From NCBI RefSeq assembly GCF_026151205.1, contig NC_087079.1:248001-312000 (forward strand): 64,000 nt of DNA, given 5' to 3'. Under the pieces are notes generated by a model. The model was not told the origin of the DNA. It saw nothing but the letters and a program-made list of their open reading frames with translations, and did not search any database. The stretch is from Bolinopsis microptera. Lineage: Eukaryota > Ctenophora > Tentaculata > Lobata > Bolinopsidae. Shown here piece by piece: positions 6,651 to 59,690 of this stretch. Positions within the stretch are counted from its first letter, which is position 1; each line of letters begins with the position of its first letter. The translations under genes and the position numbers were made by a program.

Positions 6651-6907
6651 AATACATTCTAGTTAATTTTAAGCAGAATGTTTAAGATAGATCTTAGAAT
6701 GAAACAAAAAAGCCCTTTTCAGACAAAACTTAGTAGCTGTACTATTCTAAGCAATGTTATTCTGACATTTGGAAATATTTCCTTCCGTTTGAACATAGAC
6801 TATATTGCTTAGGATACAATGACATTCTTAATAATCACTGCAATTCTGTAAAAGCCATACAACAATTCTTCTGTTCAGTAAAGCAATTCTTCAAAAATAT
6901 AACAAAA

Positions 6908-7026
6908 GGATACGGCACCCCGGAATTTCCAGGCGGTCACCCATCCAAGTACTAACCCGGCCTGCAGTTGCTTACCTTCCCAGATCGAACGAGATGGGGT
7001 GTATTCAGCCGAGTATGGCCGTGTAC
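6908..7026 (-). rRNA. 5S rRNA-like sequence inside transposon terminal repeat (copy 1)
   Basis: On the minus strand the sequence begins GTACACGGCCATACTCGGC and ends GGGGTGCCGTATCC, with the 5S hallmarks CCCCATCTCGTTCGATCTGG, GTTAGTACTTGGATGGG and TGACCGCCTGG in the right order and spacing over about 119 nt. The ends can pair as helix I. The internal control region differs from the usual 5S box (GGTAAGCAACTGCAGG in place of GCTAAGCAGGG-type sequence), so it may be a 5S-derived module rather than a functional gene. It lies within the terminal repeat shared with 38037-39250 and 41235-42200. Confidence 0.75.
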
Positions 7027-29647: not shown

Positions 29648-31626
29648 ATAAAGGAGTAGGATTCTTCCTTCTTAGCGAAGAAGATTATATTCAACGAATA
29701 GGTGTACATTTAAATGATAGATCTGTATATAGTATTGTAAATAATGTAGATGATTTAGTTGTAGAATTGATTGATAAAATTTCGAATTGGACAATTGAGT
29801 TTAAAGATGAATTAGGTATGTCCAAGAAGGTCAAGGAGTGGGTTATTCCATGTACTGAGCTTAACCAGCCTGGAAACATGTACCTGAATCCCAAGGCACA
29901 CAAACCACCTTTGTATCCTGGGAGGATGATTACCACCGGCTGTGGTTCATACATTGAAAACCTTTCTGCCTTGACTGCGTATGAATTGAAGAAGGCTACT
30001 TTGAATTATAGAATTATTGATACCCCTCACTTTCTGAGGAAGATTGATAGCCTGAACGAGTCTAGCATATTGTTGGGAAAGGAGGTTATACATGTTGCCA
30101 TCGATATATCTAACATGTTTACCAACATTCCTAGGGATATGGGGATCCAACAATGCACTAAGCACCTGAATAAAAGGAGTAGTGGTGATCAATTGTTTAG
30201 TACAGAATGCATTATTAGTGCACTAGAAATTACTCTTGATTACAACATTGCTTCATTTAACGGTATAACATACCGCCAGGAGCGTGGAGCAGCGATGGGT
30301 CCTAAGAACTCATGTGAGTATGCTGATTGTGCTATGGATAAGATTGATATTTTAGTTAACGAAGGAGATCTAGAATATGGCCCGCCTCATAGACCTGCAT
30401 TCTGGGGTAGATTACGTGATGACATTTATATGGCTTGGCCCGGTACTGTTGAGGAATTATTACAATTCATGGAATGGCTCAATAGTATCCACCCAAACCT
30501 TTTGTTTACTTACGACTACTCTAGGGACGGCGTTGAGTTTCTAGACACCTATGTCTATGCTGTTGGTGATGTTGTCCACACCAAACTCTACTCTAAACCT
30601 AGTGACACCCACTGCTACCTTATCCCCACGTCATGCCATAGGAACCATGTTGTAAAAAACATACCTTTTGGAGTGGCGAGGCGGGTGAGACAGAACAACA
30701 GTGAAGACACTAACTTCTTGGAGCAGAGAGAGGTCTATACACGTTACCTTCTAGCCCGAGGTTATCATTCCAGTATTATAGAAGATGCCTTTAACAAATT
30801 TAGTGATATAGCTAATAGGAAAAACTTGTATACCCTTAAAGACAAGGATGAGTCGACTGCCTGTTTAATACCCATGGTGATGGATCAAAACCCAGCACTT
30901 CCCAACATGGGGGGCATTATCCATAAGTATAAGCACCTTCTCAACCTTGATCCGGCCCTGAAGAAGCTGGTACGTGCGGACAGTGTATTCGTGAGTCATC
31001 GAAAGAATCAAACTATCGGTGGCATGCTTGTACACAATAAGTACCGTGCCAGTGGAACTTTAAACTGTGATAATGAGAGAGAAACAACTGCAAGCCAGAT
31101 CCAGGAACCAGACTCCGAAAGTCTAAGGGCGGTTCCCGGGGCTGTCGACCCAGGGTGCCATGCTTGTGGTAAATGTTATGTTTGTAAGCAAAATTTCCTG
31201 TCCCCCTGTTCCAATTTTAGTAGTCACCATTCTAAACAAGTTTTCCCTATAACTAAGTATATATCTTGTCAGAGTTATAACCTCATTTATTTAATGGAGT
31301 GTAAGACTTGTAAACAGTCGTATGTCGGTTATACTACCTCAAATCTCCCTAAGAGATTCTCTAACCATAAGAGTCACATAAAGAAAGGTATAAGAAGTTG
31401 TAAATTAGTTAACCATTTTTTAGATATTGATCATGATTTAGATTTTAGTACCATAGCCTCCTATAATTCCTCACTCAGTAAGCACCTTTCTGTCATTATA
31501 GTAGACGCTTTAGTATTTGAGCCTAATATTAGTAAAGCAGACAAAGAAAAGGCTATGGAAGCTAGAGAGGGGTTCTACCAGACCCAATTGAAAACCCTTG
31601 AACGGTTTGGGGGTATAAATAAATAA
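29648..31626 (+). CDS. Penelope-like polyprotein: reverse transcriptase plus C-terminal GIY-YIG (5'-truncated)
   Basis: The open frame enters at FDKGVGFFLLSEEDY (RT finger motif) without a start codon. Palm motifs follow: MYLNPKAHKPP, HVAIDISNMFTNIP (motif A Asp), GAAMGPKNSCEYAD (motif B), RLRDDIYMAW with catalytic RDD at 30415-30423, then EFLDTYVYAVGD. After the Cys-rich linker (CHACGKCYVCKQ...SPC) comes the GIY-YIG domain: NLIYLMECKTCKQSYVGYTT and KRFSNHKSH. The stop at 31624 (GGINK) is created by the LINE tail; the undisturbed copy at 22.8 kb reads GGMNTLDSN. It lacks the N-terminal third seen in the 35.1-kb PLE. Apart from truncation and insert no damage was seen. Confidence 0.87.
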
Positions 31627-38036: not shown

Positions 38037-39250
38037 CAACCCCAGCGCGTGGGGACACGTTTTTGCTAGTAGTTGGCGACGATATTTTATGGGTATCGAA
38101 TCTCGCGACTTCAACGAAGTCCTGGGGACACGTTTTCAATAGTTGATAATATTTCAGCCCCTATCGTTTTTAGCATCGTTAGGGCTTTCCCAGATACTAA
38201 CTCTCATCATCCTAGGATAATCGTGTGTCGCACAGCATCTCTTTCAGTAACGAGAGTAGTCGCATGCAGTCCAGAATGACGTGTACGTTTTGGTCACCTG
38301 TGGAAAAAGGAAGTGAGATATCAAAAATCTGAGAAAAACCCGTTGGATAAAAGCCTTTCAGGTAAGTGCTAGTCAAGATTTCATCTCTTTAGACCTTAAG
38401 ATGGCTTCTAACACCTCGTAAAAAGTTTTCAAAAGTAAAATTAACTCGCGACTATCAAAAAACAACAAAAACGTGTCCCCAATTTGCTTTTTTGAGCGCG
38501 CCGAGATCACAGATCAGCGCACCCAGCTGATCTAGCTACTATGAACAGACACACAACAATATCAGAGCAGTCACATTTTTGATGGTGATTAATACTTTAA
38601 TAACATTCCACAACAAGGCAACCATTAACTATGTAGTGTGTACCGTGTGCAGTGTGAAGTATAATATAGAGTTGGCATGAAGTTAACAGTTTACTTATCA
38701 CGAAGTTTAATTAGAAGATAAGGAAAATATTGTATTGTTATCTGTCAAAGGAATTTAATGTATTCTAACAACTTGTTCTTATAATAACTAATCAATGAAC
38801 CACATACAGGGTTGGTGTGAGTGTAAGGATTTGTGTGAGAAGATATAGAGAAGCAAAATTCAACATCACTGTATACGGCTATACTCGGCTGAATACACCC
38901 CATCTCGTTCGATCTGGGAAGTTAAGCAACTGCAGGCCGGGTTAGTACTTAGATGGGTGACCGCCTGGGAATTCCCGGTGCCGTATCCTTATGTTATATT
39001 TTTGAAGAATTGCTTTACTGAACAGAAGAATTGTTGTATGGCTTTTACAGAATTGCAGTGATTATTAAGAATATCATTGTATCCTAAGCAATATAGTCTA
39101 TGTTCAAACGGAAGGAAATATTTCCAAATGTCAGAATAACATTGCTTAGAATAGTACAGCTACTAAGTTTTGTCTGAAAAGGGCTTTTTTGTTTCATTCT
39201 AAGATCTATCTTGAACATTCTGCTTAAAATTAACTAGAATGTATTCTTAA
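38037..39250 (+). repeat. Left terminal inverted repeat (~1.2 kb) of the foldback element
   Basis: Nearly identical to the reverse complement of 6651-7856 and, apart from a deletion, of 41236-42200. It includes the palindromic AGATCAGCGCACCCAGCTGATC and the 5S-like gene. The terminal GGGGACACGTTTT motif occurs again about 90 bp inside (GGGGACACGTTTTCAATAG) and near 38462 as ACGTGTCCCC, so the end motif is iterated. Confidence 0.85.
38871..38989 (+). rRNA. 5S rRNA-like sequence in left terminal repeat (most complete copy)
   Basis: It starts GTATACGGCTATACTCGGC and ends CCCGGTGCCGTATCC; the nine 5' bases pair with the 3' end as helix I of 5S. Interior matches to eukaryotic 5S are in order: CCCCATCTCGTTCGATCTGG, GAAGTTAAGCAACTGCAGG, GGTTAGTACTTAGATGGG, TGACCGCCTGGGAATTCCCGG. 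It is followed by a T-rich stretch (TTATATTTTTG at about 38993) that could end Pol III transcription. The internal control A-box-like part (GTTAAGCAACTGC) is altered relative to common 5S. The gene may be functional, a pseudogene, or the head of a 5S-derived SINE3. Confidence 0.78.
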
Positions 39251-43117: not shown

Positions 43118-43201
43118 TGCTTTAATATTAATCTTTCCACAGACACTTGCATTTTGATGTTTACTTTCACCTCTGCATCTTGTTTTAATCAAGTATTGTT
43201 T

Positions 43202-43239
43202 TAATACTTTCAACACTACTATATAACAAATAATTTGAG
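43202..43239 (+). other. Candidate captured spliced leader at LINE 5' end (38 nt)
   Basis: Exact 38-base match with 55017-55054; the sequences before and after differ. It marks the start of this LINE and is followed by a 136-nt leader to the ORF1 ATG. It ends TTTGAG, resembling the ends of several known spliced leaders. A shared 5' module of LINEs is the alternative. Confidence 0.6.
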
Positions 43240-43375
43240 TTCAGGGATAGCATGTATTAAGGCCCCCCAAGGGGAGACGTAAGTTTTCGTTGTTTTGTTG
43301 GCTGTGAAAGCTCTTACTGCATTACCGCTGCACACTTGTGTTTATTTTAGATCATAGATATAGCTGATTTCTACT

Positions 43376-45604
43376 ATGTCTGGTATTGCTAAGAGGCAAG
43401 GGAGAAACAAAGCCCTCTCCGCCAGTTCCAGTTCCAGTTCTACACCAGCTCAACATAAAACAAAAACTGCTAAGAAGCACACATCATCATCCCTATCAGA
43501 GTTAGATGCTTCTTCAATAGCGCCCCAGCTGGACCTTACACCACACATTGCAATGCCAGCCATCCAGCACTCCCACAGAGATAAGAGGAAATGTCCCTGC
43601 GACCAGTCACTGGAATCGTCGTGGAAACTAGACTGTGCCAAGTGTGGACAGTACTGGCATGCGAACTGCGTAGGCCTTAATGGACTAAATAGTAAGATGC
43701 TCAATGATCTCACACAATGGCCCTGTCCCTTTTGTTTTGTATCACCTATTGCTACTATATCCACCCAAGTTGACGTCTGTCACGTCTGCAGAAACACTTT
43801 ATCACTACAGCAGTCAAACCTGGAAGCAGAAACAGCACTCATTTCATCACAACTAGAACCCTTAGCCAATTGTTGCAAGCTCATTAAGGATATTGACTTT
43901 GTTCAATTCAGTAACAGAATTGACACACTTGGCCAATTTGACCAACGCCTTAAGCACCTCCTCCTAAAAGACCAGCCCTGGAAATCCTTAGACTCAGATA
44001 TAAAGCTCCTTTCAGACCAGTTGGCCACTACCCTGGATAAATCACCCACACCACCACTCAACACCACAATTGAAAACCTCACAACTGCCTTACAAACTCA
44101 TGACAAGACTTTCCACTCACTCACCAACCAACTAAATGAACTCAAACAGCAAGTCACATCCCTATCATCAGACATGACCACCTCACCAACATCAGATCAA
44201 TCTGACAAGCTCCTTGAACGGGTGTCACAAGAGCTCAGAGAGGTATGCAAGCAGGAGCTGAAGCAATCAACAGCAAATCTGCAGCATTCCTCAGAGCATC
44301 CACTGACCATCCCTGGATTACAAGAGCTCAACACCCAGGTTGTAACCCAGCTGCCCCCACACAGTCGCCCGCCTGTCTCTAAACACACTCTCGATTTTAT
44401 TGATGAGGAGACAGAGAAGGATCTCATAGAACTGCTTGATTCTCGCACATCTGAGTTCAAGAATGAGAATGGACGATCTGTTCTGGCTTTTGGAGAAAGA
44501 TATCACTACACTGGCACAAAATCATCACCCTCATCCGACCAACTGCCAGACCAACTCCAATCACTCATAACACAACTGAACAATGATCATCCAAACTCTC
44601 CACCTGTCAACAGCATTCTCATCAATCGGTATGATGGTCACTTAAGCTTCCTTCCACAACACTCAGACAACGAACCCCTCATTCACCCTGACTCATCAGT
44701 ACACACACTTTCACTAGGTCACCATTGCACAGTCACTTTCAGCAAGACTGGCACCACAGAACCCTATCACAACCAGTCTTGTCCACCACGATCACTATAC
44801 ACTATGACCAGGGCAAGTCAGGATTTGTACGAACACAGAATTGAACCAGGATCTGTCGACTCCGGTGTCCGATACTCTGTGACCCTCAGATCTGTTAGTG
44901 CTCTAAACCGTGCTTCTACATGCATCATGGGAGATTCGAACACTGGTGGACTTAAATTTGGACTTGATCCTAAGAGATCCTTTGGAAAGTTCCTTCCTGG
45001 AAAACAAGTCTTCGCACCTACTGTAGACCACATTGACCCATACGAATCCTGCGGCTACAAAAACACTGTCATTCTCTGCGGACTCAATGATATTAGGCAG
45101 GATAATGTCAAAACTCCATCTGACATCAAACAAGTGTTCAATAAATTTACTAGTAAAATTGCTGAAATTCAAGCTGTCAATAAAAAAACTAATGTTTATA
45201 TATGTCCGCTGCTGCCAACTAAATGTATTGATTTAAATAGAAGAGTCAATTTCTTTAACTATCTGATTCAAACCCAGCTTCTCCCTTTCAACTTTGGTGT
45301 GAGACTGGTAGAAGGGTTTCCAAGCTTTGCTGATGAGAACGGGCTATTAAGCCAACACTTGTCAAAAAGGTTGACGAAGTTCCAGAAACCTGATTACTTA
45401 CACCTCAATTGGAGGGGGGTTGCAAAGTTAGCAGCAATCATTAAAAATACTATTCTTCTTAGAGTTAATGGTGGTCGAGACAGACGCAGAGCTGGACGAG
45501 GGGGGAATCAGGTGGACTCCACATCATTTCGTGACATAACTGCACGCTCTCTTCCTGCTGATAAACGAGTATCTGGTGCTCCTGACGGCTACCAACCGTC
45601 ATGA
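43376..45604 (+). CDS. LINE ORF1 protein: PHD finger, coiled coil, AlkB-like 2OG-Fe(II) dioxygenase, SGNH hydrolase
   Basis: 742 residues. PHD-type C4HC3 finger at 73-120 (C73, C75, C87, C90, H95, C98, C117, C120). A helical linker about 150-300 follows. An AlkB-like domain at about 365-510 has the iron triad H429-x-D431 (PQHSDNE) and a distal His (YEHRIEPG, H487), then RYSVTLR with the Arg that would bind 2-oxoglutarate. An SGNH/GDSL hydrolase at about 515-690 has GDSN (S521), GLND (N571) and DYLHLNW (D673, H676). The C-terminus is basic (GGRDRRRAGRGG). PHD plus esterase ORF1 proteins are known in CR1 elements; the AlkB insertion between them is the unusual part. ORF1 proteins bind element RNA. 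ATG is genuine; the stop overlaps the ORF2 start. Confidence 0.85.
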   Translation: MSGIAKRQGRNKALSASSSSSSTPAQHKTKTAKKHTSSSLSELDASSIAPQLDLTPHIAMPAIQHSHRDKRKCPCDQSLESSWKLDCAKCGQYWHANCVGLNGLNSKMLNDLTQWPCPFCFVSPIATISTQVDVCHVCRNTLSLQQSNLEAETALISSQLEPLANCCKLIKDIDFVQFSNRIDTLGQFDQRLKHLLLKDQPWKSLDSDIKLLSDQLATTLDKSPTPPLNTTIENLTTALQTHDKTFHSLTNQLNELKQQVTSLSSDMTTSPTSDQSDKLLERVSQELREVCKQELKQSTANLQHSSEHPLTIPGLQELNTQVVTQLPPHSRPPVSKHTLDFIDEETEKDLIELLDSRTSEFKNENGRSVLAFGERYHYTGTKSSPSSDQLPDQLQSLITQLNNDHPNSPPVNSILINRYDGHLSFLPQHSDNEPLIHPDSSVHTLSLGHHCTVTFSKTGTTEPYHNQSCPPRSLYTMTRASQDLYEHRIEPGSVDSGVRYSVTLRSVSALNRASTCIMGDSNTGGLKFGLDPKRSFGKFLPGKQVFAPTVDHIDPYESCGYKNTVILCGLNDIRQDNVKTPSDIKQVFNKFTSKIAEIQAVNKKTNVYICPLLPTKCIDLNRRVNFFNYLIQTQLLPFNFGVRLVEGFPSFADENGLLSQHLSKRLTKFQKPDYLHLNWRGVAKLAAIIKNTILLRVNGGRDRRRAGRGGNQVDSTSFRDITARSLPADKRVSGAPDGYQPS

Positions 45605-48600
45605 CTACTCTAACTAAAGAGGTATGTAAACACTGCTGCAAGGGTATCTATGTGGGCCAAGCCATAGTCGAGTGTTCCGAATGTAACCATGCAACTCATC
45701 ATAAATGCTACAATATTGTCAATACCGATTTATGCGGTAACTTTCTCTGCAATACATGTGTAAATCTTGCTGTTAAACGATACAACCCGTTCAAATATGA
45801 TATCTCCGACGAAGAAATCGATCTAGACGATACGATAACTAAGCTCTCGCAAATTTTAAACTGCTGTTCTCAGCTTAACAGAAGTCAAATTAATCAAACT
45901 CTAGAAACTTTAACCGAAGGTCAAATGTCAATGATGTTTCAAAACATAGACGGTAACAAAAGTAACTTTGATACTATGTGTATAGATCTTCGCCGATATA
46001 ACAAAAAGTTTTCCATAATTGCACTTGCTGAAACAAATGTAGGACCTGAATTAAGTAGTTTGTATCAATTAACCGAATACAATAGTTTTTACCAAGCAAC
46101 CTTTCGAGAGAAAAAGAAGGGCACCGGAGTTGCAATTTATATCCACCAGTCACTAAATGCAACAATCGATAATACCCTCTCCTATGTAAGTGAAAACCTA
46201 GAAATCCTATTTTTAAGATTCAACAATGGTAACTCAAGCACCTTTGTTGGAGTTTTATACCGCCCTCCGAGTGGCAATTTTGACTTAGCGCTAAGTGAAC
46301 TAGCCGACACTCTGGACAAAGTCCCCAGACACTCGTATATAGCTGGTGACTTTAACATCAATCTTCACGGCGACAGCAACAAGGTTGCTAAATATGAACA
46401 CGTTCTTTACAGTCGAGGCTTCTATCCTCTCATATCTGTAATGACCCATGAAAAACCCGGCTGTATTCCTTCATGCATCGATAACATCATTACCAATGAT
46501 TTAGACAACATTATAACATCTGGCACATTCAAAGACAAAATCACACATCATCACCCCATATTCTTAGCACTCAACACACACCTTGACCAGAACGATTGCA
46601 AGATTAAGTATGAACAGTTTTATGACTACTGTAACTCTAACGTAGATAAGTTCACCGACAAACTATCAAATAGTCTTGATAACACTGTAATAAATTGTTT
46701 TGATACCTTTGCTGACACATTTAACGTTGCTTTTGACGAATGTTTCAAGTTAGAAACCCCGAAATGTACAAAACGCACTATGCAAAACAATCCATGGATT
46801 ACACCAGCAATTATAACATCAATAAATCACTGTCACGAACTATACGAAAACTGGGTCAAAGCTCGCAAAGTCAAGTGCAATCTAGGAGATACTGACACAA
46901 AAGGTGGCTTCTGTCACTGCGCAGTATGTAACAAAAAGCGCAGTGAGTACTTAACTTATAAATATTATAGAAAAGAACTCAAAGTTATACGTGAAAAGGC
47001 TCAAACTTCGTACAATATGGGTAAATTTAATGAAGTTCAAGGTGACAGTAAGAAAACATGGCAACTAATCAATAAGATACGCGGCAAAGGGAAACGAGAA
47101 ATTAAACCCCCGTTTGTTATTAATAATGAGAAAATAATGAATCGTAGAATTATAGCTAACGAATTTAATAATTACTTTGTATCTCTTGCCCCTAAGTTGA
47201 ATGAATCATACAGTACAACCGGTCAAATTAGACTAAGTCCAATTCAATGCTTTACGGACTACTTACCAAGGCCAAATACCTCAAGTATATTTCTCAGCGA
47301 TTGTACACCAGAAGAAATAGAGAAAATCATTAGCGAACTCAAGAATGGAAAAGCTAGTGACATCCCTATTCACGTCATCAAACGAACGTCTAAGATTATA
47401 AGCCCACTCCTGTCAGTATTATTTAATGAACACATGAGAAATGGAACTTTTCCAGACCGACTGAAAATTGGTAAAATTAGCCCTATATACAAAAAAGACG
47501 GTACAGAATATCTCGAAAACTATAGGCCAGTATCTACCCTAGCTGTGTTCGGAAAGTTATTTGAGAAAGTAATCTACTCCCGTTTGTACAGTTTTCTTGT
47601 GTCGCAGAACGTTTTGTTTGAGAACCAGTTTGGTTTTAGGAAGAGTCACTCAACTAACCACGCCCTTAATTACTCAGTTGACTATGTAAACTCCCATATA
47701 AAGGAAAAGCAACATGTATTAGGTATCTTTATCGACTTATCAAAGGCATTTGACACTATCAGTCACGATAAACTTCTCATAAAACTTGACAAATATGGTA
47801 TAAGAGGTAACGCAAACGAGCTTATTGGAAGTTACCTATCGAACAGACAGCAGTACGTTTCAGTTTTAGGTGAGGAATCTGATAAACTCCCTGTTATTTG
47901 TGGAGTACCACAAGGTAGTGTTTTAGGACCGCTACTGTTTATAATTTACATAAACGATATCTATAACTCATCAGACCTAGGAAAATTTATACTTTTCGCT
48001 GATGACACCAATATATTTGTAGTCGACAAATCTGTCCAGAATCTCTACCAAAAAGCTAATACTATAATGAATTCTGTTTACAATTATATGAAATGCAATC
48101 TTCTCCACATTAACATCAAGAAATGCTGTTACATTCACTTTACACCAGGAAAGAAGGATGTAACTAGTAGTAGTAGTAATAGTAATGATCTTATTTTAAC
48201 GTTGAATAACACAGTCATTAAACGTGTTGATGAAACTAAATTCCTCGGCGTTATTATAGATAAAAACCTTAACTGGAAACCTCATACTGCATATCTTAGT
48301 TCTAAATTAAAGTGTGAAGTCGGTAAACTCTGCCGTATGAGAAGATTTATACCTAAAGAGCTGTATAATGACCTCTACCACACCCTCTTCGAATCTCATC
48401 TAGGATATGGGATCTCAGTGTGGGGAGGCATATCGAACAATAGGCTTGAACCAATATTTAAAATTCAAAAAAAGTGCACTCGTATTCTATTTGGTGATCA
48501 AGAGGCATACAGTAATAAGTTCAAAACATGTGCTAGAACCCGCCCAATTGGATCCCAAAAACTTGGAGCCGACTTCTATAAACGAGAATCAAGTAAACCC

Positions 48601-48951
48601 CTTCTCAGCAGAAACAAAATACTCTGCGTGCATAATTTGTATAAGTACCACTGTCTACTTGAAATGTTTAAAATAATCAAACTTCACACTCCAATACCGA
48701 TGTACAATTTATTTCAAAAGTCACCCCGACGTGATAACTACTTTATTAACCCCGCTGCAACCAATTTGTTTGTATATAAAACCTCGAATATGTGGAATAA
48801 ATTCCTTAAACCTTCTAGTAAGATTGACTTCTCGTCCCCAATTGCACTTGTTAAAGGTCGCATTAAATCTATGCTACTCAATGCTCAAAAAGCTGGAAAC
48901 ACTGATGAATGGTCAGAACTCAACTTTGATGGAAATGACATGTGCCTATAA
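45601..48951 (+). CDS. LINE ORF2 protein: PHD-like finger, EEP endonuclease, reverse transcriptase
   Basis: 1116 residues starting ATGACT, whose ATGA overlaps the ORF1 stop by four bases, suggesting termination-reinitiation. Residues 9-53 are a second C4HC3 finger (C9, C12, C25, C28, H33/34, C36, C50, C53). The apurinic-type endonuclease has MFQNIDGNKSN, ALAETNV, LYRPPSG, AGDFNINLHG and HHHPIF. RT: NYRPVSTLAVFGKLFEK, GFRKSHST, GIFIDLSKAFDTISH, GVPQGSVLGPLLF and FADD at 47995-48006, then TKFLGVIIDKNLNW. The C-terminal domain has SHLGYGISVWGG and KIQKKCTRILF. All catalytic blocks look intact and the frame is open, so the copy may be competent. The C-terminal Cys/Arg stretch TCARTRP is shared with the LINE at 60-64 kb. 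Confidence 0.9.
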   Translation: MTTLTKEVCKHCCKGIYVGQAIVECSECNHATHHKCYNIVNTDLCGNFLCNTCVNLAVKRYNPFKYDISDEEIDLDDTITKLSQILNCCSQLNRSQINQTLETLTEGQMSMMFQNIDGNKSNFDTMCIDLRRYNKKFSIIALAETNVGPELSSLYQLTEYNSFYQATFREKKKGTGVAIYIHQSLNATIDNTLSYVSENLEILFLRFNNGNSSTFVGVLYRPPSGNFDLALSELADTLDKVPRHSYIAGDFNINLHGDSNKVAKYEHVLYSRGFYPLISVMTHEKPGCIPSCIDNIITNDLDNIITSGTFKDKITHHHPIFLALNTHLDQNDCKIKYEQFYDYCNSNVDKFTDKLSNSLDNTVINCFDTFADTFNVAFDECFKLETPKCTKRTMQNNPWITPAIITSINHCHELYENWVKARKVKCNLGDTDTKGGFCHCAVCNKKRSEYLTYKYYRKELKVIREKAQTSYNMGKFNEVQGDSKKTWQLINKIRGKGKREIKPPFVINNEKIMNRRIIANEFNNYFVSLAPKLNESYSTTGQIRLSPIQCFTDYLPRPNTSSIFLSDCTPEEIEKIISELKNGKASDIPIHVIKRTSKIISPLLSVLFNEHMRNGTFPDRLKIGKISPIYKKDGTEYLENYRPVSTLAVFGKLFEKVIYSRLYSFLVSQNVLFENQFGFRKSHSTNHALNYSVDYVNSHIKEKQHVLGIFIDLSKAFDTISHDKLLIKLDKYGIRGNANELIGSYLSNRQQYVSVLGEESDKLPVICGVPQGSVLGPLLFIIYINDIYNSSDLGKFILFADDTNIFVVDKSVQNLYQKANTIMNSVYNYMKCNLLHINIKKCCYIHFTPGKKDVTSSSSNSNDLILTLNNTVIKRVDETKFLGVIIDKNLNWKPHTAYLSSKLKCEVGKLCRMRRFIPKELYNDLYHTLFESHLGYGISVWGGISNNRLEPIFKIQKKCTRILFGDQEAYSNKFKTCARTRPIGSQKLGADFYKRESSKPLLSRNKILCVHNLYKYHCLLEMFKIIKLHTPIPMYNLFQKSPRRDNYFINPAATNLFVYKTSNMWNKFLKPSSKIDFSSPIALVKGRIKSMLLNAQKAGNTDEWSELNFDGNDMCL

Positions 48952-50449
48952 TTAAGAACACACAAACTAGTCCATATAGATTTCATACTACACACACAAA
49001 ATAACACACACAATACACACCACAGTCAAACATAGAAACTATATATTCACACATATAACACAGAACACTGATCATCCGCTTTACACTGGTGTCTGGACTT
49101 GTCTGGAGTGTTCGTCTGGAACGTGGGACGGACTCACAAATATATTGTGTAAACGTAGCGCGCGAAACTTAAATATTGTATAACTCTATCATTTCATTAC
49201 CCAGCGTGATTTACCGCGCCAGAATAATGAAATGAAGCCGCGCTATATCCGTGAACCTACAGTGACTTATATTTTATATTTTGTATCTCTTATATTATTA
49301 CTACGTAACGCGAAATTAAGTTGTATCACACTCCCGGTTTTGGACCCCAATGTTAACCTTGCAGCAACTGTGTCAGCCCAATATACTCTAGAAGTATGAT
49401 CACACTTATTTTAATGAACAAAAGACCCATAATTAATATAATCAGATACTCGTCAACAGCAGCAGTTTCCTTACGTGTGATGTGTTGTCCTTCTCCTTTC
49501 TGTGTCCCCGTCGTTTTGTTTTGTGAAATGTATTGTAGTAGTGTTTTAATATTTAAATCGAACGCAACTCAATAGTTAATAATAACAAACACAAATACTA
49601 TTTTAAATAATTGATTAATATCGATTTATATACGAACCAAACATTAATTATTCTTTAATAACCTTTTATATATGTGTTAAACGATCCAGGGCATATCTAA
49701 AATTCGATAATGAACTTCATATACTATTAGTGCCGCGTGCTGATAAATATTCTGGGAATCAATCCACCCAATCGTGGCGATAACATATTTTTGTGCTTGG
49801 CCGGTTTTAGGTTTGAGTTTGTGCTCCAAAAGTGGTAAATCGGGTGCTAGTAAAGCTCTTGCAGGCAACTGGCTCCTTTTGCCAACTGCTTTTGGTTTAA
49901 GCGCTGACTCACATTTGGAACGGGCACTGGTATAATTGTAATATCCTACGAAGTCAGCATGCTATATTATTTTGCAAAACTCGTTTAATATCTTGACAAT
50001 ATTTAAAGTTTATGGTTTTAGGTTTGGGCGCGGCGCACGCACCGCTTATATGTTATAGCTCATTCAGCTTCTGTTTTCAGCGCTGTGTTGCTACACATTG
50101 TATAGCATGTGGGTCAAGCGCGGTGCCGCGCCTAAACAGCAAAAGAGTTATTTATTTTAAAATTTATTTTTGTATCTCAAAAATGATGTAAAGTTTTTAA
50201 TGTGACGTAGAATTAAACCTATTTCCGTAGTACAGCCTAAGTGCTAAGCATGCTTGTTAGAAAAACTATGAACAATGAACATAACATGCTAGCTTTCTTT
50301 ATTTTTGTAAGTCGCGTCGGCTGACATCTTGGGTTGTACTGGATGTAACAAGTTTATTATCGGATGTCTACTTATATTTATTATGATATCATTATTCATT
50401 GTAATGGCAATAAAATTTAAATTTTGTTTTACTTAAAATTTTGTTTTAC
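48952..50449. other. Presumed LINE 3' UTR, no gene recognised
   Basis: AT-rich with CA-rich start (ACACACAA words). Short ORFs are unsupported. It ends in two copies of a 17-bp TTTTGTTTTACTTAAAA-like unit. Confidence 0.45.
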
Positions 50450-50473
50450 TTGTTTATATCTTATGATTGAATG

Positions 50474-50655
50474 AGACTTACTCACAAATTTCCCATCTCA
50501 GTATTGATCTATTTTTGTCATGTTTTTAATTTACTTCATAGAACAGTTATTTTAATAAACTTGCTTTCAGAATGAGACATGTAAAGATTACACAATTGAT
50601 AGCTTAATGTGAATTTCGTGTTTTACTGTTTCACTGAATGTCTCAAATATATATA
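50474..50655 (+). repeat. 3' pseudo-LTR of PLE
   Basis: Direct repeat of 35123-35305 with about one substitution (CAATCGATAG versus CAATTGATAG). It is followed by (TA)n. Confidence 0.7.
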
Positions 50656-50660
50656 TATAT

Positions 50661-51340
50661 ATACAAAATGAAACGACCGGTTGAGTCAGACAAATGTTTC
50701 AATGATCAATGGATCACAACTTATATATATATAATAAATAATAATAATAAATTAATGTTATTTTTATACAGCACCAAAAGGTTAAATAATTTAAATTTAA
50801 CCCTTATGCACAGCTGTAAATGATACTTAAATTAACGAGAGTGTGCATCTTTGCCTTAGACGGAGGTGGAACAAGAAACTGTTCAGAAAACAGGCGATAA
50901 AAACTGTAAAATATAACGTGACTAAATAAGGCAGATGCACCTAACAAGCAGATATCCAAGAAGGGTTAGCAGGTTTTCTAACAGAGGACTAGAAGAAAGG
51001 ATAATGACTACAAGAAATCGCAGTATGAAACTCAACAGCCTAACAAATTTAAAAATCGGGGTTATAAAAATGAAATTCCCTGATATATTAAAAATTCTAT
51101 AAAAACTCAATAAAAATTCCTTAAAAAATCCATAGAAATTCTATAGATTCCAAATATACAAACAATCTGAAGTTTCCAATATACAATGAAAATTGATTGA
51201 AGAAGTTAACTGCAGAACAGTAACTGATGATAAAGATTATAACTGAAAATCCAATACAGTCATACCAAACAATCTGGGCAACATAAAAGTAGAGACAGTA
51301 AAAAAGAGAAGAAAAAGATGCTCTAGTACTTGAGACAAAA
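50661..51340. other. AT-rich spacer with partial hammerhead-flank motif
   Basis: AAAATGAAACGACCGGTTGA and GTCAGACAAATGTTTCAATG at 50665-50704 repeat the motif at 51345-51385. TGGATCACAACTTATATATA (about 50710) also occurs at 35073, just outside the left end of the PLE. The rest shows nothing recognisable. Confidence 0.45.
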
Positions 51341-51365
51341 TACAAAATGAAACGACCGGTTGAGT

Positions 51366-51420
51366 CAGACAAATGTTTCAATCATGATACAAAACCATGA
51401 TATCATCAGTGACAACTGAG
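51366..51420 (-). ncRNA. Candidate hammerhead ribozyme (minus strand)
   Basis: The minus strand reads CTGATGA (51409-51403), a hairpin ATCATGGT...ATCATGAT, GAAAC (51379-51375), a short loop and GTC (51370-51368). Flanks GTTGTCA and TGACTCAAC can pair as stem I with a two-base bulge. This is the type I order with minimal stem III reported in PLEs. A U-U mismatch at the base of stem II weakens it. Confidence 0.5.
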
Positions 51421-51447
51421 GTATAGGAACTAAAATTAAGGAAAAAT

Positions 51448-51771
51448 GAGGAGCACCACTACATCGGAATGACGGAGGGCACATTCAAGGACCGGTACAA
51501 TGGGCACACGTCATCATTTCGCCTGGAGCGGTACCGAAATAGAACCAAACTGTCGGAGAAGATCTGGTCCTTCAAAGACCGTGGGTTAGAATTCAGGATC
51601 GAATGGAAAATAATCAGACGTGGACACGGATACAGAGCCGGCCAGAACAGCTGCGATCTGTGCACGTCTGAGAAATTAGAAATCTTACTTCGATCCTCTG
51701 ACCCACACTTACTTAACTCCAGGACGGAAATCCTTACAAAATGCCGCCATAAACGGAAATTCCTTTTATAA
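51448..51771 (+). pseudogene. GIY-YIG endonuclease fragment
   Basis: The frame enters as HHYIGMTEGTFKDRYNGHTSSF, the YIG strand with the R..GH helix of a GIY-YIG nuclease; the GIY strand upstream is missing. It continues KLSEKIWSFKDRG, C..C (CDLC), EKLEIL, LLNSRTEILTKCRHKRKF and stops. It belongs to a different retroelement family from the PLE copies at 20, 30 and 35 kb. No RT is attached. Confidence 0.7.
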
Positions 51772-51868
51772 TCTAATGACTCATATATCTAACCCCTAGT
51801 ATTGTTTCACGAGTGAATGTTTATGTTAATTTGTAGCTTTGTAATTTTAATTTTAGTTCCTATACCTC

Positions 51869-51928
51869 AGTTGTCACTGATGATATCATGGTTTTGTATG
51901 ATGATTGAAACATTTGTCTGATTCAACC
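51869..51928 (+). ncRNA. Candidate hammerhead ribozyme (plus strand)
   Basis: CTGATGA at 51877-51883, stem II about 51884-51906, GAAAC at 51907-51911, loop ATTT, GTC at 51916-51918. GTTG/TCA upstream pairs with TGA..CAAC downstream. It is the inverted twin of 51366-51420, with two differences in stem II and stem I. Confidence 0.5.
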
Positions 51929-51945
51929 GGTCGTTTCATTTTGTA

Positions 51946-52130
51946 TCTAGCTCTCGGCTTGCCGATTGAGCACTGTAAGCAGACGAAGCCACCCACAATT
52001 TATATATATATATATATATATTATTCGCAATAATAAATTGTGCAGGTATTTGCATCCGTTCATGTTTACATCAATATCATGATTACATCATTTGTCATAT
52101 AAAAAAATTTGATTGACAACGCCAGACGGT
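51946..52130. other. Spacer with (TA)n and short palindrome
   Basis: ACAATTTATATATATA and TAATAAATTGTG pair around a (TA)n run. Nothing else was recognised. Confidence 0.4.
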
Positions 52131-52358
52131 ATAAATCTTTATTCCACTGGGAAGTATGAATAGGGTTATTTTTTGGGGATGCTTTTTGAATTTATTTGAA
52201 ATTTTTTAATAAAGTTGTAGTTAATTATTTATTGATTTTGGTGGTAAGATATTTATATTTTTCCATATATATATTCCATGATAGTGATTTGATACTTTGT
52301 AGATGGTAGACATGTGTGATGATGTTATGTCATAATTTTTACTTACTTACTTACTTAC
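52131..52358 (+). mobile_element. 3' end fragment of the CR1-like LINE found at 55-59 kb
   Basis: ATAAATCTTTATTCCACTGG matches 59073-59092 at the end of that LINE's ORF2. GTGATGATGTTATGTCATAA and the (TTAC)n tail also match. It is a severely 5'-truncated copy; frame irrelevant. Confidence 0.82.
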
Positions 52359-52361
52359 GCG

Positions 52362-52915
52362 CGATGTCAACCCTTTCAGATCGTTGCCTTGCAAATTAAC
52401 AAAGTAACGATCTCGTCGATGCGAAGTAAAATAATGATTTGCGCGGCGTGTTGAAGCGGCGAAGTCCTCCAAAAAATATAACATTTTAAAATTCATTTCT
52501 CTAAATAGTACCAAACAGGGTGCCAACATTTGGCGGAATGACAGGCTGAACGCCACCCAGTAACGTGATACAACGCGATGCACTATTGAGATGCGCCGCG
52601 CATTGGATAATATGCTACAGCATACCTCGACTGCATGCATTTGGCATTATGTTTAAAAAAATCATAAGCAAAGAAAATAGGAGCTGGAACAAATCAGTAA
52701 TGTCAAGTGACTGATTTAATTCGCTTAGCAGTTATAATGAGTGATTCTTATCTTAAATAATATTTTTCAAAAGATAAATCATGTACACTATTTTGGAGGA
52801 CTTTGCCGCTTCGACGCGCCGCGCAAACTAGCATTCTTGCTTGTGCTTCGCATCGACAAGATCGTTGCATGCTCTGCTTCGCAAAGCAACGATCTGGAAG
52901 GATTAACATCATCAA
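52362..52915. mobile_element. ~0.55-kb foldback repeat (GATGT-AACCCTT...GATCGTTGC)
   Basis: GATGTCAACCCTTTCAGATC at the left is inverted at the right as GATCTGGAAGGATTAACATC. GCGCGGCGTG, GAAGCGGCGAAGTCCTCCAAAA and their complements continue the arms for about 120 bp. It lies directly behind the LINE tail. No ORF or clear TSD. Confidence 0.65.
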
Positions 52916-53332
52916 TCAAACACAATTTTAAATAAAAAATAGACAATAGAGACATCATAAAAGAATGTTAATATAATGTTTTATCATGGTTGTCAGTTTT
53001 CGACAAATGATGGTTCTACCTTTCATCCCTGTTCATATGTGTTTCATTGAAATTATTGTTGCTTGTAAGGAATCCTATTTTGAATCACCATGGCGAATCA
53101 CATAATCCGTAATCGAGAATATGTTTAGTATCTGGAATCGAGTGCTATTATCTGAGAGCCCAGAAGGCTATAAGTAAATTGATTTACCTTCATCGATCGA
53201 TAGAATCAAGAATGTTATCGTAGCTTGACCATAAATGTTTTCGGATCGGTTTTGATGCCCATTCATATCCCATATAATCCCATATAATATATTATAGAAA
53301 ATCGATTTCATCGCTTCTATCATTTGCCATTC
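52916..53332. other. Spacer, nothing recognised
   Basis: AT-rich sequence leading to the RLE-type LINE. Its end AAGAAAACAACAAATTTTT is the left target duplication of that element. Confidence 0.5.
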
Positions 53333-53351
53333 AAGAAAACAACAAATTTTT

Positions 53352-55015
53352 CAAGAAAGTGTGATGTGTCCCGAGCTGTATAAATATCTTGTTAATACCT
53401 ACAGAAAAGCAGCAAAACTGTGCATACCAAACTCCAAGGGATTGTTTATTCTATCCCAAGAAGGTACTACTCAGGGGGATAACTGTGCTTCTGCATTTTA
53501 CTCCTGTAGCCTGATGCCCCTTATGGACAAACTCCCCACAGAGCCACCAGATATCTCTCCCGTGGTCTGTGAGAACACGAAACCTCCCCAGAAGCCTCCA
53601 GAGGAGAACAATAAGATTGAGACACCGCCAGATACAACTCCAGATAGGACTCCGGAGGTAAATAAGCCCTCCAACAAAGCTGCTAAACACATATGGTTTG
53701 CAGATGATTCTGGAGCAGCAGGAAGGCTTAAAGCCCTGAAGATTTGGTGGGATACCGTACAGGCATCTGGCCCCGTTTATGGCTATTTTCCCAAACCTTC
53801 CAAGACCTGGCTTATAGTTAAAGAGGAGTATCAAGAGGAAGCCAAGTCTCTCTTCCCCGACCTTAACATCACCACTGAAGGTTGTCGTTACCTGGGTTCT
53901 TTTATTGGTACAGAGTCTGGAAAGAATAAGTTTATCCAAGCCAAATGTGTTGAATGGATAGAAGAGATCGAGGGATTGGCATCAATTGCACAGCATGAGC
54001 CACACCTTGCTTACGCCGCTTTTGTTTACGGCTCCTCCCGCAGATGGTCTTTCCTGATGAGGACCACCCCTGACATTGCAGTGAACTTACAGCCCATCGA
54101 GGACAAGATCAGGAATTTGCTCATTCCCAACATGACAGGACACACAATTAGGTCCAACTTTGAGCGCAGCCTGTTCTCCCTCCCAGCCAAGTTAGGTGGA
54201 CTAGCTATCATCAATCCAGTAGAAATTGCTGATAATGAGTACAAGAACTCACTCATGGCTAACCAGCAGCTTACAGACCAAATCCTGAAGCAACACACCA
54301 CTCTCAATACCAACAGAGAGGCTGGGAAAGCAGTCAAGTCTGCCATTAGCATGTCTAATGCCAAGAGGTATGAGTCACTAAAAAACCAGCTGATGAACGA
54401 TCTTCCACCTTCGATCAGTGAGAAGATCCCACATGCATGTGAAAAAGGTGCATCAAGCTGGCTGACCGGACTTCCCTATGAGAAGTACGGCTTTGTCTTG
54501 AACAAGCGAGGGTTCAAAGACGCGATAGCATTGAGATATGCTCTACCCATTGCCAACATAGCCAAGAAATGCATTTGTGGCAAAGATAACACCTACAACC
54601 ACATACTTATTTGCAAGAAAGGAGGCTTTGTCAACAGCAGACACAACCGACTGAGAGACACTGTTGCAAGCATTCTGGAAAAAATCTGTAATGAGGTTGT
54701 TGTAGAGCCCACACTCCAGCCATGCACTGGAGAAAGCCTTCGCCCTGGTACCATCCTGGATGATGGGGCAAGGCTCGACATAGCAGCTAGAGGTTTGTGG
54801 TCACCAATGGAGATGGCATTTTTTGATATCAGGGTTTTACACCCCGGAGCCAAATCCAACGCTAATCACAACACCCCAGCAAAGATGTACAGCAAGCATG
54901 AGAGAGAGAAAGAAAGGAAATATGGAGACCGCTGTGTACAAATTGAAAAAGGAACCTGCAATGGCCTTGTATTCTCGACCACCGGAGGTATGGGCCCACA
55001 GGCTACCATGTTGTA
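53352..55015 (+). CDS. RLE-type LINE protein: RT C-terminal part, CCHC motif and restriction-like endonuclease (interrupted)
   Basis: The frame opens at the truncation. RT block B is QEGTTQGDNCASAFYS; the catalytic block is WFADD (FADD at 53697-53708) followed by WWDTVQASGPVYGYFPKPSKTWL. Downstream is the cysteine motif C-I-C...NHILIC, placed as in R2/R4/NeSL-type elements just before a restriction-like endonuclease: RHNRLRD, ARLDIAARGLW and FFDIRVLHPG, then LVFSTTGGMGPQA. An acidic/proline insert (PPEEN...PDTTPDRTPE) sits between blocks B and C. The stop comes from the inserted LINE; at 59282 the frame resumes as KRVATLLAAKTSQ. Clade within RLE elements is not decided. Confidence 0.8.
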
Positions 55016-55016
55016 G

Positions 55017-55054
55017 TAATACTTTCAACACTACTATATAACAAATAATTTGAG
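55017..55054 (+). other. Candidate captured spliced leader at LINE 5' end (38 nt)
   Basis: The 38 bases lie exactly between the broken host frame (ends TTGTA) and GTATGACACG, so the ORF1 ATG follows after only two bases. The sharp host junction shows the block belongs to the inserted LINE copy. Identical to 43202-43239. Confidence 0.65.
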
Positions 55055-55056
55055 GT

Positions 55057-56028
55057 ATGACACGAGGAGATACGAAACGAACACGAAATGTCAAGAAAAG
55101 TCCAGAGAAAACTGGTGCTACAGCAGAAAAGGATGTAACTGAAGATGAAGAAAATCGTAGTTGTGAATGCAGAAGGTATATTGAAGAGGAGTTTTCATTA
55201 GCTTGTGCATCCTGTGATATGTACTGGCATTATTGCTGTGTTGGACTGACAGGTCTGACACAAGAAGAAGGCGACCGTCTGTCTAACTGGCGTTGTCAAA
55301 ATTGTTTCATATCACCTTACATTAAAAGCAACAGGACTCAGACCTCAAACCCTGATAATGAAGAAACAAAAACACTACGGAATGTTATTAGGCAGGAACT
55401 TGAGGTCCTTACACCTTGTATCAGAGGGGTGGTTGAAAATGCAGTAAAAGATAACATTCCAACTAACTTCGAGTCTGAAAAACCTAAAGAAATCACAAAA
55501 ATAGTAAACCAGGCTTTCCAATCCTGGGCAGATGTGACTGCAAATAGTCAGAAGAAAGTTATGGAAGAAATGAGCCAACAGCAAGCTTCACAAAGTGTTA
55601 TCAGTAAAGTTCAGACAAAGATGCACACTGATGAATATGAGCGAAATTTAAGAAAGCTCAATCTGTGTGTTTTGAATGTTCCAGAGAGCAAGAAAGCTGA
55701 CACCAAGCTACGCCAGGAAGAGGACTCAAAGTTCTGCAAGGAGACACTAAAGATTGAAAAAAGGGACTTTATCAGTTGCCATCGTGCAGGTAAAGTGGAT
55801 CCAGATAAGCTAGACTCCTGTCGGCCATTGATCATCCAGACAGCTGACATGGAGTCAGTTAATTATTATTCCAACCATGGCAAGGGCTGGAAAGAGTCAT
55901 CATACTGGATAAATATGGATCTCTGCAGAGCAGACCGAGAGATCCGTTTTTTAGCCAGAGAAGAGAGGAAGAAGAGGCGGGAAGAAGCAGAGAAGAAAAA
56001 GACAGAGAAGAAGGTGGAGAAGAAATAA
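55057..56028 (+). CDS. CR1-like LINE ORF1: PHD finger, coiled coil, RRM-like C-terminal domain
   Basis: 323 residues. C4HC3 finger at 36-83 (C36, C38, C50, C53, H58, C61, C80, C83) related to that of the other LINE's ORF1. A helical region about 100-190 follows, then LRKLNLCVLNVPESKK, FISCHRAGKVD, RPLIIQT and YWINMDLCRADRE, typical of LINE ORF1 RNA-binding C-terminal domains. The tail is highly basic (KKRREEAEKKKTEKK). There is no AlkB or SGNH domain, unlike 43376-45604. ORF2 begins 29 bases after its stop. Confidence 0.82.
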   Translation: MTRGDTKRTRNVKKSPEKTGATAEKDVTEDEENRSCECRRYIEEEFSLACASCDMYWHYCCVGLTGLTQEEGDRLSNWRCQNCFISPYIKSNRTQTSNPDNEETKTLRNVIRQELEVLTPCIRGVVENAVKDNIPTNFESEKPKEITKIVNQAFQSWADVTANSQKKVMEEMSQQQASQSVISKVQTKMHTDEYERNLRKLNLCVLNVPESKKADTKLRQEEDSKFCKETLKIEKRDFISCHRAGKVDPDKLDSCRPLIIQTADMESVNYYSNHGKGWKESSYWINMDLCRADREIRFLAREERKKRREEAEKKKTEKKVEKK

Positions 56029-59102: not shown

Positions 59103-59281
59103 TGAATTGTTTATAGATAATGTATTAGATTTTATTAGTTAAAATTGAATTTATTAAATTATTAATGTTGATGGAAAAGTATATTTATTTAAAGTATTTT
59201 TCTATTTAGTGCAATGTTATTTTGTAGACACTTGTGATGATGTTATGTCATAATCTTTACTTACTTACTTACTTACTTCCT

Positions 59282-59563
59282 TAAACGAGTAGCAACACTT
59301 CTGGCAGCCAAGACCAGCCAGGACAAAAGCCTCATTATGGCAAACCTAAGACGTCGTTTGAGGTTTGAGCTACTTAAGACAGTATTGCTTGCAGTGAGAG
59401 GACACAGAGGACGGTATTATGAGAAAGCAATACCTGTTGACGAACTGGACCTAAATCTTGCACACACCACCAACGATGAAGACAGGGGTGATGATGTTGA
59501 TGATGAAGATAATGAAGTTGATGATGAGGCTGAGAATGTAGAGGAAGAGGTTTCAGAAGAGTG
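59282..59563 (+). CDS. RLE-type LINE protein, C-terminal remainder
   Basis: Continuation after the CR1-like insert: TTGTA at 55011-55015 joined to TAAACGAG gives LYKRVATLLAAKTSQ in frame. Arg-rich MANLRRRLRFELLKT is typical of the end of this protein family, then an acidic tail (DEDRGDDVDDEDNEVDDE). The ATG at 59337 is internal. Confidence 0.75.
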
Positions 59564-59690
59564 AGCTGAAAAGAAGACAAGTTTCTATTCTAATTTATTG
59601 ATTATTATATTTATTGAAATAAACATAAAATATCCATTACTCCAGGAGTGATGACAGGATATATAAAAAAAAAGAAAACAACAAATTTTT

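Follow-up and report, generated by a model that had tools for sequence, protein, structure and literature searches.

A 38-nt block at the 5' ends of two LINEs of Bolinopsis microptera is very probably part of a captured host spliced leader

In a 64,000-nt stretch of the genome of the ctenophore Bolinopsis microptera (NC_087079.1, positions 248,001 to 312,000; hereafter the window), two long interspersed nuclear elements (LINEs) begin with the same 38 nt, TAATACTTTCAACACTACTATATAACAAATAATTTGAG. The locus raises the question how two elements that differ in their first open reading frame (ORF) came to share their opening bases. The block lies at 43202-43239 in LINE1, the element starting at 43198/43202, and at 55017-55054 in LINE2, which starts at 55017. 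The identity is exact, no other plus-strand copy is present in the window, and with independent bases only about 3e-13 such repeats would be expected there by chance. A sequence-only reading had suggested that both mRNAs received a host spliced leader (SL) by trans-splicing before reverse transcription. All evidence on trans-splicing presented here comes from genomic DNA, and it strongly supports this view: in the light of SL RNA genes and of a leader-bearing retrocopy of a host gene, the 38-mer very probably represents the 3' portion of a spliced leader of the host, which was joined to host and retrotransposon RNAs and written back into the genome by LINE reverse transcription.

The border at 55017 was correctly placed by that reading. 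The ORF 53361-55016 stops at the junction TAG, and the same frame resumes at 59283. The block forms the first bases of the inserted LINE, the ATG of ORF1 at 55057 follows after the two bases GT, and ORF1 differs between the two elements (742 aa with an AlkB-type domain versus 323 aa). A refinement concerns the outer limits: the unit captured at 43202 truly begins at 43198, the preceding GTTT being leader, while the leader at 55017 is 5 nt short.

The genome (264.65 Mb in 232 contigs, with the 13 large scaffolds C1-C13 making up 97.5% of the assembly) contains 949 exact copies of the 38-mer, 434 forward and 515 reverse, compared to none for the reversed-letter control. Of the 75 copies listed on C1 we studied the first 54 in succession, chosen by the full exon end. 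TTT precedes the 38-mer in 48 of them, GTTT in 34 and AGTTT in 26. At every insertion with a target repeat legible by eye, GTTT belongs to the inserted sequence rather than to the target, so what was captured exceeds 38 nt in most copies. GTTT stands between the repeat and TAATAC in L085/L086 (16-nt repeat), in L093/L094 and L081/L082 (5 and 4 nt, weak) and in L101 (A-rich, 11 nt). For the GTTT that precedes most copies an origin from the target site was rejected: it lies between the flanking repeats, and SL genes encode CAGTTTTAATAC.

A 43-nt exon, AGTTTTAATACTTTCAACACTACTATATAACAAATAATTTGAG, which we call SL-A, ends in the 38-mer. In an SL RNA gene this exon is followed by GTAAGATTAAGTTCC, CATCTTTTGG and a GCCTTCC-ACAA-GGAGGGC hairpin. 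The first such gene (L070/L119, C1:19149765-19149891, minus strand), in which the exon continues into GTAAGATTAAGTTCC...ATATTTTGG and then the hairpin, is the only one among the 54 C1 copies. With its 89-nt 3' part as query, 40 of 201 first-look candidates were scored, and all 40 matched. Two tandem arrays of SL RNA genes lie on C13 and further ones on C5 and C3, and some copies are dispersed. We read 15 distinct units in L120-L130 (19 rows, overlaps removed), and the leader exon abuts GTAAG in every one; a variant exon is present in L126, in L128, where it is degenerate, and in one of the two units of L124. L119 and these 15 further units, most of them in tandem arrays, have AGTTT...TTTGAG directly before GTAAG, and hence the GT donor after TTTGAG that the sequence-only reading expected of an SL RNA gene. 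TTTTGG, the predicted Sm-like site, lies 54-55 nt past the donor and is followed by a hairpin of 7-8 bp in the three sequences folded; folding of one SL RNA sequence gave a z value of -2.48 against shuffles. The 90 bases 5' of the 38-mer look alike by eye in the array gene L120 and the dispersed gene L119, as expected of a promoter. We counted at least 130 places with a leader followed by GT. This is an undercount, since GTAAGATTA has an A where the pattern barred A, and patterns with a final B or H excluded true SL RNA genes.

Bolinopsis seems to have more than one leader, and leader length across the SL types is 43-45 nt. A 45-mer, SL-B, was first found on the LINE2 copy L107. Its last 33 nt have 99 exact genomic copies (control 0), 20 of which lie at C5:1039673-1050571, mostly 428 bp apart. 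The three units read there consist of AGTTTTAAACTATTTTCACAACTACAATTAAATACATTTATTGAG, then GTAAGATTAAGTTC...CCTTTTGG and the hairpin; their intron starts with GTAAGATTAAG, as in the SL-A gene, and they end with TTTTGG and the hairpin. SL-A and SL-B RNAs are most divergent in the exon and can be aligned along the intron. The C5 array is best understood as a second leader with an intron homologous to that of SL-A. A further form, SL-A' (L142, L143, L146-L149, L151), equals SL-A with three A-to-G changes (AACACTACT to AGCGCTGCT); the leader of L151 has two more changes. SL-A' may stem from another SL gene or from A-to-I editing.

The leader is not confined to LINEs, a restriction that would have spoken against the sequence-only reading. 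At L062/L101 (C1:14433186) it is followed by TTAACAGAAAACATG... and an open frame of 119 aa to the stop. The product matches PDB 7tut_9, "Obligate partner of TMCO1 insertase", over its first 117 aa (2.2e-32) and the Pfam family EMC6 (3.4e-18), and the locus is evidently a copy of the host gene OPTI/RAB5IF. It is a processed retrogene: three parental introns are absent, an A-rich tail is present, the copy lies away from its parent, and the A-rich 11-nt repeat was seen by eye at its flanks. Exon 1 of the parent starts at the base right after the leader in the retrocopy (leader/TTAACAG versus ctcttttcaaaacatctcatcag/TTAACAG), and ctcttttcaaaacatctcatcag is a 3' splice site whose end coincides with the junction. 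The 1,101 bases read around parent exon 1 share no stretch of 14 nt with the 38-mer. Such a pair is what trans-splicing followed by retrotransposition would predict, and not what a retroelement 5' untranslated region (UTR) would.

A 98-nt family resembling short interspersed nuclear elements (SINE-like) gave the same picture. Of 87 candidates 40 were scored matches and four were read; in three of these four, TTAACCCTTATCTTTATTAG stands before GTACTG. L095, which is the query's own place (L074), has the SL-A leader before GTACTG. A pattern search for this leader form returned two places, L074 and its diverged relative L033. In the OPTI pair, one host gene, and in the SINE-like family, the DNA has the leader at AG acceptors whose parental loci have no genomic leader. 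We had considered the 98-nt family as a second SL RNA (SL2-like). This was dropped, as its upstream part resembles a polypyrimidine-AG acceptor; the putative exon with other downstream bases was found 0 times by a pattern whose final B barred GTACTGA itself and a quarter of other continuations.

According to Pfam, LINE1 and LINE2 are non-LTR (long terminal repeat) retrotransposons of the apurinic/apyrimidinic endonuclease (APE) type, with two ORFs and an AP-like endonuclease and a reverse transcriptase in ORF2. When the 5' ends of both families were compared, as the sequence-only reading had advised, all 41 copies that matched from base 1 turned out to bear an SL. The LINE1 search yielded 19 matches, 16 from base 1 and three that are 5'-truncated or degenerate; leaders on the 16 are SL-A in six (including the window copy), SL-A' in seven, SL-B in two and SL-C in one. 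The LINE2 search yielded 29 matches, 25 from base 1 (18 at known leader+GT places, seven read), with SL-A in 24 (one with two differences, at least three 5'-cut) and SL-B in one. L110 and L111 share flanks and represent a single LINE2 insertion that was duplicated. The other four LINE2 matches comprise L112 and L113, which have no leader, and L114 and L115, which share flanks and belong to a related family with SL-A. The same leader heads LINE2 copies whose identity to the window copy, over 55-81 nt, is as low as 85-86%.

In three of the 16 LINE1 copies the junction lies at the AG 5 nt further on (TTCAG/GGATAG). The window copy, L134, L135, L136 and L138 have bodies identical over 43 nt; three have SL-A at the first AG, one has SL-A at the second AG, and one has SL-C. 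In another LINE1 subfamily (L146-L151), likewise identical over 43 nt, five copies have SL-A' and one has SL-B. Unlike leaders and two-AG junctions on identical 5' bodies argue against an inherited 5' UTR or promoter. Because identical bodies carry different leaders, while diverged copies keep the same one, the leader appears to be added afresh in each cycle and not inherited, and LINEs seem to gain a new leader at each jump.

We propose the following course of events. SL RNAs would be made from the tandem gene arrays of the host, and at AG acceptors the spliceosome would attach the leader, 43-45 nt long, to pre-mRNAs of both the host and its retrotransposons. LINE enzymes would then copy the leader-bearing mRNA by target-primed reverse transcription, from the 3' tail to the 5' end, and for this reason complete insertions would start with the leader. 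Leaders at the start of LINEs and of many other sequences would thus be copies of spliced messages written into DNA. Trans-splicing would be active in the present-day animal and would provide LINE RNA with its cap.

Several observations weigh against this proposal. A single host retrogene, that of OPTI, has a traced parent. The Sm-like site AUCUUUUGG differs from the textbook AAUUUUUGG. No RNA gene for SL-A' or SL-C was found among the fetched loci, and both leaders occur on LINE1 copies only (seven and one). The 55017 copy has no clear target-site duplication, and a duplication was readable in three of six LINE2 copies read at both ends (16, 5 and 4 nt). A source copy with an outron was not found: none of the 41 base-1 copies (16 LINE1, 25 LINE2) has one, so new LINE transcripts can be accounted for only if leader-bearing copies are spliced again.

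Since no base-1 copy has an outron, leader-bearing copies may themselves be the sources. AG occurs in the AU-rich SL-A leader only at the first two and the last two bases. Having no inner AG, the leader could offer its last AG as acceptor, which would rebuild the same structure. We tentatively suggest that the captured leader is a self-renewing 5' end, a minimal outron in which the old leader is removed at its own last AG and a new one is placed there. If true, a LINE would need to encode no acceptor beyond the leader itself and would still keep a constant 5' end with a cap, and the leader would be reset to whichever host leader is used (SL-A, SL-A', SL-B or SL-C). A second leader within 160 nt downstream was present in one of the 54 C1 copies only (L036, a rearranged palindromic copy, without the final AG), so re-splicing at upstream AGs left little trace. 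Alternatively, leader-bearing LINE copies could be dead on arrival, all new ones stemming from rare sources that have a true outron and a promoter. This is a real possibility, hardly less likely than self-renewal; the absence of an outron from the 41 copies speaks against it, and such sources could be absent from the assembly or have been missed.

That the 38-mer might instead be a conserved 5' UTR or promoter module common to retroelement families, inherited or swapped by template switching, is highly improbable. It does head LINEs, SINE-like and other repeat families, and a 77-nt 5' promoter common to retroposons, Pr77, is known (PMC8190864). However, the 38-mer belongs to the exon of SL RNA genes, which occur in many copies and have a donor site, it stands on the host OPTI retrocopy at the splice acceptor of the parent, different leaders occur on identical LINE 5' bodies, and the junctions shift between two AGs. 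It does not behave like a Pr77-like block, which would be passed on with its element and be missing from host mRNAs. As sole explanation a promoter module is refuted by the OPTI retrocopy and by the SL RNA genes; the captured leader may have a promoter role in addition.

Small-RNA/LINE chimaeras are known in other animals, and the extra partial leader 5' of the full one in L022 and L091 suggests that template switching does occur, but joining of the leader to element RNA by reverse-transcriptase switching onto SL RNA, without splicing, is scarcely credible: 53 of the 54 C1 copies lack the SL intron after the exon end (the exception being the SL RNA gene; leaders ending elsewhere would escape this sample, which was picked by the full exon end), the LINE1 and LINE2 base-1 copies, selected by their bodies, all end at the exon end, and in the parents, OPTI and the three SINE-like ones read, the junction comes directly after an AG. 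Trans-splicing followed by LINE reverse transcription is the reading we retain.

The 54 C1 copies fall into 30 downstream clusters (blastn), containing LINE-like ORFs, short non-coding repeats, a palindromic CCTGAAGATGG family, which presumably resembles Penelope-like elements, and single sequences. In L009, L010 and L011 the leader recurs in tandem, at spacings that include 101 and 181 bp, and TCAGGG(A/G)AGC comes after it, which indicates that a leader-bearing insertion turned satellite-like. In L013, L014, L025, L065 and L067 (SL-A) and in L152 (SL-B), two leader-bearing 5' ends face each other head to head as a palindrome, separated by a few bases up to some tens. Both arms have the same leader in all six pairs, as if from one complementary DNA. 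A hammerhead, the core of which was suspected by eye in head-to-head copies, was not found by Rfam, and the many microRNA matches of that search are palindromes under the gathering scores. The minus strand of L003 has, from position 1501 of that strand, a leader and then an intact 103-aa repetitive ORF of secreted type, possibly another retrogene. Besides the extra partial leaders of L022 and L091, L036 has one of 36 nt lying 12 nt downstream; all three look as if reverse transcriptase had switched to a second leader-bearing template.

The coordinates of the features are given in Table 1. The AlkB-type domain of LINE1 ORF1 (PF13532, 2.9e-13) lies between a PHD-like finger and SGNH-like motifs, both recognised by eye, and a literature search gave, by title, no LINEs with an AlkB domain in ORF1. 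A target-site duplication of LINE1 was not found, and its 3' end is not fixed. Elsewhere in the window, a 619-aa ORF at 29767-31626 has a GIY-YIG domain (3.2e-7), which we take to be of the kind present in Penelope-like elements, and dispersed 5S rRNA matches over the Rfam gathering score lie at 6907-7026 (minus strand) and 38871-38989 (plus strand).

Table 1. Leaders and LINE features of the window, and the OPTI parent on scaffold C1
Feature	Position	Strand	Basis or remark
Spliced leader SL-A, 42/43 nt (GTTT + 38-mer), 5' end of LINE1	43198..43239	+	Sequence; equals SL RNA gene exon
LINE1 5' UTR past leader, opens TTCAG/GGATAG	43240..43375	+	In the family, leader joins before or after TTCAG
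LINE1 ORF1, 742 aa, 2-oxoglutarate-Fe(II)/AlkB-type PF13532 at residues 373-505	43376..45604	+	Pfam
LINE1 ORF2, 1116 aa, APE-type endonuclease PF03372 and reverse transcriptase PF00078	45601..48951	+	Pfam
Reading frame interrupted by LINE2	53361..55016	+	Restriction-like-endonuclease LINE by eye (also the earlier reading); no Pfam match
Spliced leader SL-A, 38 nt, 43-nt exon minus first 5 nt, opening bases of LINE2	55017..55054	+	Sequence, SL RNA gene exon
LINE2 ORF1, 323 aa, PHD-like by eye	55057..56028	+	ORF, Pfam scan, eye
LINE2 ORF2, 1014 aa, endonuclease PF14529 and reverse transcriptase PF00078	56058..59102	+	Pfam
LINE2 3' tail, TTAC repeats	~59256..59280	+	Same tail reached in 6/10 other copies examined
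Continuation of interrupted frame, KRVATLLAAK..., 93 aa to stop	59283..59564	+	Same frame as 53361 ORF
OPTI parent, four matched exons	exon 1 C1:10217801-10217879; exon 3 C1:10211546-10211677; fourth beyond	minus	Sequence matches

SL trans-splicing is known in ctenophores from Hormiphora californensis (PMC8527503, citing Derelle et al. 2010), where the leader is GAGTTTCAAACTTTTCAACACTACTTTAAACAAATTAATTTGAG, is present on 56% of Iso-Seq reads and has 718 genomic copies, with 491 copies in Mnemiopsis (PMC8527503). SL-A is identical to the Hormiphora leader at 37 of 42 aligned bases, 0 of 5000 shuffles aligned as well, and on this alignment the two are homologous. The two systems agree in a leader ending in AATTTGAG with hundreds of genomic copies. 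In Hormiphora, common first exons were ascribed to reads mapped to the nearest leader locus (PMC8527503); here, unlike in that account, the 53 copies on C1 without an SL intron were distinguished, as captured copies, from SL RNA gene arrays and a second leader. Leader capture may explain the hundreds of apparent leader sequences in ctenophore genomes, and annotators should be aware that captured leaders are not SL genes or first exons. The chaetognath leaders listed in Table 3 of PMC2481426 (GGAAGC...) do not match SL-A.

The closest parallel for leaders in DNA is provided by the DinoSL-tagged retrogenes of dinoflagellates (PMC6050394, PMC12014239). There, too, processed gene copies carry the SL in DNA at their 5' end, and the captured leader was suggested to act as a promoter (PMC6050394). 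In dinoflagellates, however, many transcripts have relict leaders 3' of the new one (PMC6050394), compared to one of 54 copies here (L036), and the tagged units are gene copies, whereas those in Bolinopsis, where traced, are mostly LINEs and other repeats. In Hydra about 30% of Iso-Seq reads from transposable elements bear the leader, so transposon RNA uses host trans-splicing there (PMC12220107); the evidence is from RNA, and leaders in genomic copies are not reported in the accessible part of that study. The Pr77 sequence of trypanosomatids is likewise short and common to the 5' ends of LINE and SINE families, but it is a promoter with unspliced transcripts and no trans-spliced exon (PMC8190864).

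A 29-nt piece of the leader occurs in no paper of the literature searched, and a 13-nt piece was not found in the subset checked. In this literature, mainly outside subscription journals and accessible in part, we found no genomic leaders on LINEs of an animal. Genomic leaders provide a fossil record of germ-line trans-spliced host and transposon RNAs that can be read without RNA. LINEs that depend on host trans-splicing, with a leader varying by copy, allow one to ask how a retrotransposon keeps its 5' end despite splicing. Compared to the known systems, what looks new in Bolinopsis is that LINE families begin, in the genome, with a host spliced leader that appears to be renewed in each cycle.

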